From positions 996,501 through 1,060,500 of the forward strand of contig NZ_VHJK01000001.1 in assembly GCF_007004095.1 (NCBI RefSeq): a DNA stretch of 64,000 nucleotides, in the 5' to 3' direction. This DNA comes from Erythrobacter insulae (GTDB lineage: Bacteria; Pseudomonadota; Alphaproteobacteria; Sphingomonadales; Sphingomonadaceae). Positions 12,846 through 31,717 of this stretch are shown piece by piece; within the stretch, counting starts at the first letter, position 1, and every line of letters starts with the position of its first letter. The position numbers and the translations under genes were made by a program. Under the pieces are notes generated by a model. It was not told the DNA's origin, did not search any database, and saw only the letters and a program-made list of their open reading frames with translations.

Positions 12846-12875
12846 GCAGCCAAACAGACCGCGCCGCACAAACAA

Positions 12876-12912
12876 AAAGCCCCGGACTTGCGACCTGCAA
12901 ATCCGGGGCTTT
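12876..12912. terminator. Bidirectional rho-independent terminator
   Basis: Perfect 11-bp stem AAAGCCCCGGA / TCCGGGGCTTT with a 15-nt loop, followed by GTTTTG on the plus strand and by T-rich sequence on the minus strand. It lies between the convergent galU and flotillin genes and can serve both. Confidence 0.85.
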
Positions 12913-12928
12913 GTTTTGCGATTGTCGT

Positions 12929-29276: not shown

Positions 29277-29565
29277 CGTCTATCCAAATCTCGTTTCGCG
29301 TCGTCTTGTCTTCTGGGCCTTTGGCACAGCAAGGCGCGCGCTTGAAGCGGCGTTTGCACAATTTACCGATTTCAAGAGGCCGCCGCGCCGCCCGAAACCG
29401 GGAGGGGGCGGCTTGCGGGGGTCAACCCAGCTGCAACCGCCCCCGGAAATCCGAGGTTGTCGTGGTGCCGGTTGTGGTCAGCTGTTTGGCCATAAAGCGC
29501 AGATAGGGCTGCGCGAGCGACTTGTCACGCTCTGCGCATGGAAACGGAAAGCACCCGCGCCACTT
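29277..29565. other. Intergenic region with GC-rich inverted repeats
   Basis: About 290 bp between thrS (minus strand) and the operator-like repeat. No gene is convincing here. At 29403-29444 GGGGGCGG and CCGCCCCC (with TTGC / GCAA) form an imperfect hairpin, flanked by CCCGAAACCGGG and CGGAAATCCG. It could be a leader structure for thrS. GGAAAGCAC at 29546-29554 repeats the half-site of the operator at 29566. Confidence 0.45.
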
Positions 29566-29615
29566 TGGAAAGCACGCTTGACATTACCGCGAATCAATGA
29601 CAAGTGTGCTTTCCA
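29566..29615. promoter_or_regulatory. Long inverted repeat, probable operator of the following cassette
   Basis: Left arm TGGAAAGCACGCTTGACATT (29566-29585) and right arm AATGACAAGTGTGCTTTCCA (29596-29615) match at 18 of 20 positions around a 10-nt spacer. The left arm contains TTGACA at 29578-29583, a perfect -35 sequence, though no good -10 is seen at the expected spacing. It ends 22 nt before the first gene of a cassette ending in an Xre-type regulator, so autoregulation is likely (inference). An extra copy of GGAAAGCAC is at 29546. Confidence 0.7.
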
Positions 29616-29637
29616 TAAGTGAAAGGGAGCTTGTCTC

Positions 29638-29805
29638 ATGCAAAATATCATTATCGCTCTAATCTGGGCCGCCTTCATCATCGTTACCGCGTTCGTCATG
29701 CGCTCTGCCGGGATTGGCGAAACCGCCAGCTTCACTGTGACCATGGCGCTTTGCGGGGCGGCGCTGGCGACCATGAAATTCAGAAAACGCGCCGCCAAAT
29801 GCTGA
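29638..29805 (+). CDS. Miniature membrane protein, 55 aa (cassette gene 1)
   Basis: Starts MQNIIIALIWAAFIIVTAFV after ribosome binding site AAAGGGAG. Two hydrophobic segments (about 3-20 and 30-46) and a basic C-terminus (KFRKRAAKC), so a two-helix inner-membrane protein is likely. No family recognised. It directly follows the long inverted repeat, which places it at the front of the regulated cassette. Confidence 0.72.
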   Translation: MQNIIIALIWAAFIIVTAFVMRSAGIGETASFTVTMALCGAALATMKFRKRAAKC

Positions 29806-29858: not shown

Positions 29859-30035
29859 ATGACTACACAATCCAAAGCCCTGCTGTGGGCCAGCACTATC
29901 ATTTCCGCCGCACTTCTCTCGGTCGGCCTTGGTTTTAGCGATGCCGCGTCTTACGGCATCGTCTCGGGTCTTTCGGGAGCTGCATTCGGTCACCTTTATA
30001 CCGGCACCAACTGCTTGCGCGGATGCCTGTCATGA
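29859..30035 (+). CDS. Miniature membrane protein, 58 aa (cassette gene 2)
   Basis: Starts MTTQSKALLWASTIISAALL after AAAGGATCTGACC. Two hydrophobic segments (about 8-25 and 30-45) and a short tail with two Cys (NCLRGCLS). No family recognised. Its TGA overlaps the next start as ATGA, so it is translationally coupled to the multi-TM protein and is a real part of the cassette. Confidence 0.72.
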   Translation: MTTQSKALLWASTIISAALLSVGLGFSDAASYGIVSGLSGAAFGHLYTGTNCLRGCLS

Positions 30036-30631
30036 CCGCGCGCTCTTTCAGCCCGGGCAAATTGTCGCTCTCGCTTGCAGCATCGTCCGTCCTCAGCGCG
30101 CTCGGCGTGCTGTTCCTGTGGAAGTCGGGCGCATTCGAGACCGAGCCTGCCTATCTCCTGACCTTGCTGCCGGTTGCTTTGGTGACAACGTCGATCGCGA
30201 CCAGTTTCCGTAAACGCGAAAAACCGCCCTCGGCATCGCACCGTTATCTGGGGCGGATGGCGATTGTGATGGCGTTCTATCTCGTCACGCTCTTCCTTGC
30301 CGAACACTGGATCGACAATGAGGGGCTGATCGGTCCGCTGGCGTTGATCCTCGCGCTTCTGCCCGGCCTGTCTTTCGCAGGTGTGGTGTGGATTTTCGGT
30401 GGTCTTATCGTCGAGGAGAAGGACGAATTTTACCGGATGCTGTTCGTGCGTCAGGGCCTGATCGCGACCGCGATTTCCTTCACGCTCGCCGCGGTCTGGG
30501 GCTTTCTTGAAACCTACGGCCAGGTCGAGCCTGTCGCGGCTTTCTGGTGGCCCACCATCTGGTGCTTCGGACTCGGCATCGGCGGGGTGTTCAACAAGAT
30601 CAAATACGGCACGTTTGGAGAGATACGATGA
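30032..30631 (+). CDS. Multi-TM membrane protein of unknown function (cassette gene 3)
   Basis: 199 aa with about six hydrophobic segments. The C-terminal half (about 128-199) carries EEKDEFYRMLFVRQGLIATA and VWGFLETY, closely matching the next gene product, so the two share a domain. No named family recognised. Coupled by ATGA overlaps to both neighbours. The cytoplasmic charged loop KDEFYRMLFVRQ between membrane helices looks like the conserved functional element. Confidence 0.78.
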   Translation: MTARSFSPGKLSLSLAASSVLSALGVLFLWKSGAFETEPAYLLTLLPVALVTTSIATSFRKREKPPSASHRYLGRMAIVMAFYLVTLFLAEHWIDNEGLIGPLALILALLPGLSFAGVVWIFGGLIVEEKDEFYRMLFVRQGLIATAISFTLAAVWGFLETYGQVEPVAAFWWPTIWCFGLGIGGVFNKIKYGTFGEIR

Positions 30632-31017
30632 GCATGGCCCCTTATATGAAGAGTTATGTCAAACGGATCGCATTCTTCATGTCCGCCTATGTCGTTATCC
30701 TGATCGGCGGCCTGACGTACCACCGCACGAGCGAACCGACCGAGTTGGTCTCAATCGGCCTTGCGCTGATCACCGCTCTTCCGGTCTGCGGGGTGTTCTG
30801 GACGATCTACCGATTGCTGATCGAATGCGATGATGAATATCAGCGCATGCTTTTTGTGAAGCAGGTGATCGGCGCAACCGGAGCCACCTTGGTGATAACC
30901 ACGGTGTGGAGTTTCCTCAAAACCTATGATGTGCTGGCATTCGGCCCTCAATGGGTGGCCGTGATCTGGTTCGCGATGCTTGGATTTGCCGGACCGATTG
31001 TGAGGTGGCGCGCATGA
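30628..31017 (+). CDS. Membrane protein related to cassette gene 3 (cassette gene 4)
   Basis: 129 aa, about four hydrophobic segments. It contains CDDEYQRMLFVKQVIGAT and VWSFLKTYD, the same motif as the preceding protein (DE-aromatic-x-RMLFV-basic-Q, then VW-x-FL-x-TY), indicating duplication within the operon. ATG overlaps the previous stop, and its stop overlaps the regulator start. Function unknown; membrane proteins beside small Xre regulators are a recurrent arrangement in bacteria. Confidence 0.78.
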   Translation: MSMAPYMKSYVKRIAFFMSAYVVILIGGLTYHRTSEPTELVSIGLALITALPVCGVFWTIYRLLIECDDEYQRMLFVKQVIGATGATLVITTVWSFLKTYDVLAFGPQWVAVIWFAMLGFAGPIVRWRA

Positions 31018-31205
31018 ACAACCGCCTCAAAGTGCTCCGCGCGATGCGCGACTGGTCCCAGCAAGACCTCGCCGATCGGCTCGAAGTCAGCCGCCAGTCT
31101 GTGAACGCGATTGAAAAGGGGCGCTATGACCCCTCGCTCCCGCTCGCTTTCAAAATCGCTGAAGTGTTCGAATTGCCAATCGAAGAGATTTTCAGCCGAG
31201 ATTGA
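31014..31205 (+). CDS. Small Xre-family (YozG-like) transcriptional regulator
   Basis: 63 aa, little more than one helix-turn-helix domain: RLKVLRAMRDWSQQDLADRL, then VSRQSVNAIEKGRYDPSLPL and an EEIF end. This is the compact Xre type that is usually encoded with a membrane protein. Coupled by ATGA to cassette gene 4. It is the obvious candidate to bind the inverted repeat at 29566-29615. Confidence 0.92.
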   Translation: MNNRLKVLRAMRDWSQQDLADRLEVSRQSVNAIEKGRYDPSLPLAFKIAEVFELPIEEIFSRD

Positions 31206-31242: not shown

Positions 31243-31434
31243 TTAGGCCGCTCGCTTAATACCCGTGATATGGGTGCCGCGAAGGCCTGTTTTGATTTCA
31301 GAGACACGCCCTGAATTGATACCTAAGTCGGCAGCAATATCCTGTTGGAGGTCACCTGCCTGCAGGCGCTCCCAAACATAGCGGTAAGTCTCGTCACTCA
31401 TTGGAGCGCGTTCGCGCCCTTTACGGTAAGCCAT
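31243..31434 (-). CDS. Small helix-turn-helix protein, 63 aa
   Basis: Starts MAYRKGRERAPMSDETYRYV after ribosome binding site AAGGAA. The core GDLQQDIAADLGINSGRVSE reads as a helix-turn-helix, resembling phage-type or resident small DNA-binding proteins. The same frame stays open upstream to about 31587 with gene-like text (ESLAKTVLEARGWNDL), so an upstream non-ATG start, or the remnant of a longer gene, is possible. Convergent with the membrane cassette. Confidence 0.65.
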   Translation of the reverse strand: MAYRKGRERAPMSDETYRYVWERLQAGDLQQDIAADLGINSGRVSEIKTGLRGTHITGIKRAA

Positions 31435-31717
31435 GTATGATTCCTTTTTCATGGCCGATCTGAAAGCTTGACGGGACTTCCGTGTCAGCATATCGCTGAC
31501 GGTGTTCAGGTCATTCCAGCCTCGCGCTTCCAGAACAGTTTTTGCGAGGCTCTCCTGATCGGAAAGCTCGGCGTCCTACCGCCGGGCTTTCGTCGTTTCA
31601 GGACAGTCGGTTATGAAGATCCTCCATATCGACCTGCGTGTCGAGTCACGTCCGTTCGATTCGGCGGGGATAAACCGTGCGATAACCGAGATTTATCAGT
31701 CGCACGCTCTCATTTGA

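Follow-up and report, generated by a model that had tools for sequence, protein, structure and literature searches.

Single-domain Xre regulators encoded beside orphan membrane proteins are common and mostly unexplained, and one such locus in Erythrobacter insulae raises the question of what a long inverted repeat, placed directly in front of the genes, is for. The repeat lies in a 64-kb stretch of DNA (the window, by which we mean the whole stretch analysed) and has arms at 29566–29585 and 29596–29615, with 18 of 20 positions matching and a spacer of 10 nt between them, as the initial annotation had described. That annotation saw in it an unusually long operator that may bind two dimers, or else a folded leader or the end of a mobile element. 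When spacers of 0–40 were scanned, no other repeat with 20-letter arms matching at 18 or more positions was found in the 64-kb window, and repeats of this quality were absent from all 20 first-order Markov shuffles. (The sole other repeat in the window with 20-letter arms that reaches 17/20, at 12871–12917 with a spacer of 5–7, is perhaps a terminator.) The element GGAAAGCAC occurs three times, at 29546, 29567 and, on the minus strand, 29606; the third, upstream copy had been placed at a distance of 20 bp and is indeed present, 21 bp from the copy in the left arm. The arms also contain CTTGACATT and, on the other strand, CTTGTCATT, and TTGACA, a candidate −35 element on the basis of its sequence, lies within the left arm (29578–29583, forward strand), all as previously noted. 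A promoter scan found no consensus −10 in the cassette promoter.

Between the repeat and the start codon at 29638 there are 22 bases, and the cassette that follows comprises five open reading frames on the forward strand, in agreement with the annotation. The first two would encode small hydrophobic proteins of 55 (29638–29805) and 58 residues (29859–30035), the latter with homologues in related cassettes. They are followed by a 199-residue helical membrane protein, predicted from the reading frame, its modelled structure and its relatives (30032–30631), and by its 129-residue membrane-protein paralogue (30628–31017; 35% identity over 117 columns). The last gene (31014–31205) encodes a 63-residue, single-domain, CylR2-like Xre regulator (Pfam HTH_3, E 4e-16), the nearest solved relatives of which are 9k3w (E 3.2e-21) and CylR2 (phmmer E 3.8e-14 over residues 3–61; 1utx, 2xiu). 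In the window and in its relatives the reading frames upstream of xre are overlapping, hydrophobic and helical, which suggests that their products reside in the membrane. None of the membrane proteins of the window, the 55-residue protein included, has a Pfam or NCBIfam match above cut-off, and the best such match among 28 relatives is to 8xMP, at E 5e-4 in one member. AlphaFold models the 199-residue protein with a pLDDT of 79.5 and a pTM of 0.61; this fold has no PDB match at E ≤0.001, and no confident PDB match was obtained for the cassette membrane proteins in general. Nine residues of the 199- and 129-residue proteins (30032–31017) do not vary across 28 relatives; four of these, E128, D131, E132 and R135, surround a single loop. 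Directly after xre, on the minus strand, an 82-residue reading frame (31243–31491) has a sub-threshold resemblance to HTH_Tnp_2 (E 0.07).

Inspection of the repeat shows that each arm alone is an imperfect 18-bp dyad of the general form TGnnAAG-n4-CTTnnCA. The left arm provides a putative Xre site, here termed O1 (TGGAAAG-CACG-CTTGACA, 29566–29583, forward strand), which includes the −35 candidate, and the right arm provides a second, O2 (TGACAAG-TGTG-CTTTCCA, 29598–29615, forward strand). The test that had been proposed for the repeat, namely its conservation upstream of homologous cassettes, was run, and the repeat withstood it. The 199-residue protein is matched at E ≤0.001 in 132 of 298 genomes of the family; 32 cassette loci were taken from named genomes and further stretches were added, and a close Xre is encoded in all of the 162 loci analysed, window included. 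Loci from named genomes may partly represent the same species as loci from the other genomes; L252 and L253 are one locus. Removal of identical O1–O2 stretches left 159 distinct loci, and in 156 of these a pair of sites scores at least 18 of a possible 24; the maxima in mono-nucleotide shuffles of 62 upstream regions were 13–17. The score was designed after a first look at the data and takes no account of O0, O3 and GANTC, described below. Of the three loci below 18, one (L100) is a 2.1-kb fragment.

The gap between O1 and O2 is 14 bp in 76 of the 156 loci, 13 in 38, 16 in 18, 15 in 16, 12 in four and another length in four. The last four, with gaps of 9, 17, 20 and 23, were left out of what follows (L061, with a gap of 9, has a second pair with a gap of 13 and GAATC, which is not counted), and in the remaining 152 the start-to-start distance is 30–34 bp, mostly 31–32, or about three helical turns. 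Taking the pair as a fixed reference, we scored every distance between 15 and 69 on either side; neither of the outer sites had been used for finding the arrays. On the downstream side a third putative Xre site, O3 (29619–29636, forward strand), overlaps the ribosome-binding site and ends one base before the start codon. It stands exactly 21 bp from O2 with five or six of the six letters of the core AAG-n4-CTT in 132 of 152 loci (87%), against a background of 0.7% per position further downstream, and +21 is also the best distance in 132 of 152 when each locus is allowed its own. On the upstream side lies a degenerate fourth putative site, O0 (29545–29562, forward strand), exactly 21 bp before O1, which keeps the left half GGAAAG and has a weak right half; this is the third copy of GGAAAGCAC. 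Over the 152 loci its core scores a mean of 3.55 of 6 against a background of 1.49, with the left-half letters G, A, A and G retained in 122, 116, 116 and 119 loci and a right half that is again weak. Beyond O0 the information is at most 0.15 bits. The array therefore runs O0-21-O1-32-O2-21-O3 bp from start to start, which is about two, three and two helical turns, and such spacing, near whole turns, means that bound dimers would share one face of the DNA. In the 76 loci with a 14-bp gap the A-T core pairs of the dyads are complementary in 96–99%; the inner G-C pair is complementary in just 59% (O1) and 41% (O2), a point against the reading of the locus favoured here. The frame of a single, unusually long operator is thus the wrong one, since the arms are the two middle sites of an array of four. 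The suggestion that two dimers may bind is by contrast well supported, to the extent that sequence comparison can support it, by the full 18-bp dyad in each arm, the narrow, conserved spacing and the covariation with Xre described below.

The outer sites, considered as sites, go beyond what had been annotated, and so does a GANTC, the sequence recognised by CcrM, which occurs as GAATC in the gap between O1 and O2 (29591–29595; TGATTCG on the reverse strand). Of the 152 loci, 67 carry a GANTC in this gap, that of the window being one of them, when 1.8 would be expected from the surrounding DNA, and no other five-letter or one-gap word tested is as enriched as GAATC and GA.TC. All 67 fall into a single 10-bp bin (0.044 per bp, as against 0–0.006 in the other bins of the approximately 480 bp around the array). 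On a tree built with FastTree from the membrane protein plus Xre, at least 45 changes of state are required, so the gap GANTC is not one inherited copy, and in a separate search of relatives it was found in the gap of seven of 10 pairs. The letters of the 67 sites are GAATC in 55, GACTC in six, GAGTC in six and GATTC in none, with C before the site in 63 and T in four, and A after it in 35, G in 29, C in two and T in one. Among the one-letter neighbours of GAATC, GACTC (six against 0.15 expected) and GAGTC (five against 0.14) exceed expectation 37 to 39 times, GAATT does so about five times (three loci against 0.56), and the remainder are at chance or absent. Strong enrichment confined to changes at N is the pattern that an enzyme reading GANTC would impose. 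The site is missing from 85 of the 152 loci, including that of Caulobacter (L070), and it was found in the gap of the best pair in none of 12 order-level and none of four class-level loci; it follows that the array does not need it. The absence of GATTC from all 67 likewise indicates that methylation alone does not explain the letters.

The genome to which the window belongs encodes both a CcrM-like protein (N6_N4_Mtase plus RAMA) and GcrA, and in the window and 66 more of the 152 loci the GANTC lies between the −35, itself a sequence candidate, and the presumed −10 position. One temporal class of start sites in Caulobacter is distinguished by a GANTC placed between −10 and −35 (PMC4287350), and at the ftsZ and mipZ promoters a conserved CGACTC is reported to be required for activation by CcrM (PMC3708114). 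Caulobacter sites activated by GcrA read TGATTCG, or more broadly YGAKTCK, whereas GcrA of B. subvibrioides is described as having almost no flank preference beyond a slight one for a preceding C (PMC7987155). The gap context CGAATCR is YGATTCG on the other strand, and the window reads TGATTCG; taken as single columns, the reverse strand fits YGAKTCK with Y in 64 of 67, K at the N position in 61 and G in 63, and GAGTC (six of 67) does not conform to it. In Sphingomonas AAP5 the commonest m6A motif is reported to be GANTC (PMC8067484). Within the 64-kb window the word is rare, with 66 occurrences against 234 expected from base composition. A general promoter class of this type in the genome of the window was considered and dropped, as TTGAC-N7-10-GANTC is not enriched there (28 matches genome-wide, 31 in the control).

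A paralogous second Xre, about 70–80% identical, has a promoter of its own of the form TTGACA-N-GANTC-...CATATA, with other repressor-site words. TTGACA-N5-11-GANTC was found at 16 of 22 such loci (L221–L224, L227, L228, L230–L232, L234–L239 and L257) and twice in 748 kb of control sequence, and these 16 promoters carry CATATA-like words 17 nt after TTGACA. The paralogue locus of the window's own genome, L220, is without GANTC. At L220, L223 and L239 the paralogous Xre adjoins a gene that we take to resemble the one for glycyl-tRNA synthetase alpha.

These observations bear on the strongest of the competing explanations, according to which the sites do form an Xre autoregulatory array and the GANTC serves a role other than methylation, either shaping the spacer or being read by another protein with a preference for CGANTCR. 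The 85 loci that lack the site would sit comfortably with such a role, as would the marked preference for A at N, C before and R after, the absence of GATTC, and the lack of a genome-wide class of such promoters. We nevertheless regard it as unlikely, because it would have to account for strong enrichment that is common only to the N-position neighbours GACTC and GAGTC, for the recurrent gain or loss of the site, and for the appearance of the same element in a paralogous promoter with different operator words.

A second alternative accepts methylation and reverses its relation to the repressor. Here Xre bound to O1 and O2 would keep CcrM off the GANTC, such that the repressed state is unmethylated and the methylated state open, giving a two-state memory that is reset at replication. 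The site is certainly fenced by two operators, and shielding of GANTC has precedents in the alphaproteobacteria, where MucR is reported to protect such sites from CcrM and CtrA is named as a further shielding protein (PMC5172544). A gap of 13–14 bp may however leave the GANTC accessible to CcrM, and the GcrA-like flanks would be left without explanation, so that as an account of the locus we consider it rather improbable. In its broader form, a natural CcrM-based epigenetic switch in which phased Xre dimers fence one GANTC and occupancy and methylation are mutually exclusive, the idea is likewise unlikely. If it were true, the passage of each fork would leave the site hemimethylated for a time, during which a membrane-sensed signal would decide the methylation state that follows. 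Memory of the envelope signal would then be heritable and clocked by replication, and alphaproteobacteria would have a counterpart, in two paralogous Xre systems, of the Dam-based switches.

Which protein reads the sites is indicated by covariation between the operators and the Xre encoded in the same cassette. Arginine at residue 37 of Xre is present at 42 of 46 loci with GA at positions 2–3 of O1 and at 28 of 106 others (Fisher 3e-14), the strongest association among the traits and positions tested, followed by lysine 35, for O2. Independent pairs of loci with differing operators were drawn on the tree of the membrane protein; over 15 such pairs residue 37 changed, on average, in the same direction in 6.8, in the opposite direction in 0.2 and not at all in 8.1 (median p 0.016, range 0.002–0.375). 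Lysine 35 leaned in the same direction in this test without reaching significance (median p 0.125). There are also Xre positions beyond the recognition region, for example valine 51, that lean with the operator, and relatedness is thus not fully excluded as a cause. At a deeper level, residue 29 is serine in 151 of 152 proteins of the main group, alanine in all 22 paralogues and threonine in all 12 order-level relatives, and the operator words differ among the same three groups, with TGTCAGG-like words in the paralogue promoters and TGTAAAG-like pairs with a 19-bp gap at seven of 12 order-level loci. At these seven (L243–L245 and L247–L250) the Xre sites, with half-sites of the TGTAAAG type, are 37 bp apart and the gap is without GANTC. 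Autoregulation is supported by this covariation of operator bases with residues in the recognition region of the Xre from the same cassette, and the dyad sites do stand directly upstream of the operon that encodes it, with residue 37 tracking the operator within the main group and residue 29 between groups. In 31 relatives a search for the pair returned at most one per genome, in 10 of 19 genomes of the genus (that of the window included), in none of 12 others and in no control, as fits a dedicated autoregulator. Comparison of related loci thus demonstrates the four putative sites, their spacing, their conservation upstream of homologous cassettes and their covariation with Xre.

A wider regulon of single sites in the genome of the window was considered and rejected, as the four exact matches to GGAAAGCACNCTTGNC are the two arms and two positions inside open reading frames that resemble murG and ubiG. 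When one mismatch at most is allowed, the 18-mer has 67 forward matches, compared with 54 in the control, from which it is evident that single sites say little.

Could a regulator other than the cassette's Xre bind the sites? The few covarying positions outside the recognition region would allow for it, but it is with residues 37 and 35 of Xre that covariation of the operator bases is strongest, the identity of residue 29 changes from group to group, no relative among the 31 has more than one pair, and Xre is encoded without exception at the 162 loci; we judge such a regulator very unlikely. More improbable still is that the repeat works by folding within a leader, into an RNA hairpin or a cruciform. 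The copy in the window does fold well (−25 kcal/mol, z −7.5), and one outer arm-to-arm pair, at position 2, matches in 0.71 of loci against 0.43 for independent columns, a value that two sites with one reader would also give. The five inner pairs, on the other hand, match in 0.24–0.41 of the 76 loci of the same spacing, no more than the 0.33–0.40 expected of independent columns, and the −35 candidate lies inside the repeat. The pairing of a conserved hairpin is thus not kept across relatives, which leaves the proposed folded leader unsupported. The same fate befalls the mobile-element end, for which the inverted-repeat shape alone speaks and which is scarcely conceivable given that none of 31 relatives has more than one pair and that the pair keeps its place before the cassette in related loci.

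The explanation that we favour, and hold to be reasonably probable on this comparative evidence, is that the locus is a CylR2-like Xre autoregulatory array of four sites around a promoter of the GcrA/CcrM type. Through the array the small regulator would, most likely, control the operon of membrane proteins to which it belongs. Dimers of Xre would fill O1, O2 and O3 and, weakly, O0, as neighbours on the same face of the helix, and repression would follow from their masking the −35 (at O1), the −10 and start region (at O2) and the ribosome-binding site (at O3). The operon's membrane proteins may respond to some cue sensed in the envelope by releasing or capturing Xre, in the way proposed for CylR1/CylR2. 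The promoter, with its poor −10, could be activated by GcrA and RNA polymerase on methylated GANTC, and TTGACA without a consensus −10 is what would be expected of a promoter with this requirement. Signals of the GANTC type are used by other bacteria to tie gene activity to chromosome copying; here, the methylation state would change as the replication fork passes. If GcrA does act on the methylated site, two inputs would govern the output of the operon, the membrane signal acting through Xre and the state of methylation. The case yields a site-by-site operator map and a residue-to-base rule backed by covariation, together with a testable link to CcrM and GcrA outside the classic cell-cycle genes.

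Judged from sequence, known parts appear here in a new combination, in which a phased array of putative Xre sites surrounds a probable CcrM/GcrA promoter, and in the titles and opening lines of abstracts in the literature no description of an Xre array around a GANTC was found. The closest parallel is with CylR1/CylR2 of Enterococcus faecalis, where CylR2 is a promoter-bound repressor and induction requires CylR1, which is suspected to be a membrane protein (PMC3709268). Both systems pair a single-domain Xre of about 65 residues with a membrane protein, which here is predicted and encoded in the same operon as the CylR2-like HTH protein; they differ in that five genes here form one operon, in that its membrane proteins are without a known family, and in the four-site array before the operon and the GANTC in its promoter. 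XRE operators more generally are upstream palindromes read by dimers, as described in a survey of palindromes across 223 clusters (PMC12565409) and for a Caulobacter XRE group with a motif of one strong and one weak half-site (PMC10688885). As presented in these two sources such operators are single motifs, whereas here four phased sites surround a methylation site. The likeness to GcrA/CcrM promoters of Caulobacter (ftsZ, mipZ, podJ P2 and ctrA P1) lies in the promoter GANTC, its position between −35 and −10 in one temporal class, the similar flanks and the presence of CcrM-like and GcrA proteins. Unlike those promoters, the GANTC of this locus is fenced by putative sites for a repressor that the operon itself encodes, its genes are not among the known cell-cycle genes, and control by GcrA and methylation is inferred. 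Finally, the hypomethylated promoters shielded by MucR in C. crescentus and S. meliloti (PMC5172544) also place a GANTC inside a repressor-controlled alphaproteobacterial promoter; MucR controls many loci, whereas the Xre described here appears to be a local autoregulator with sites on both sides of the GANTC.
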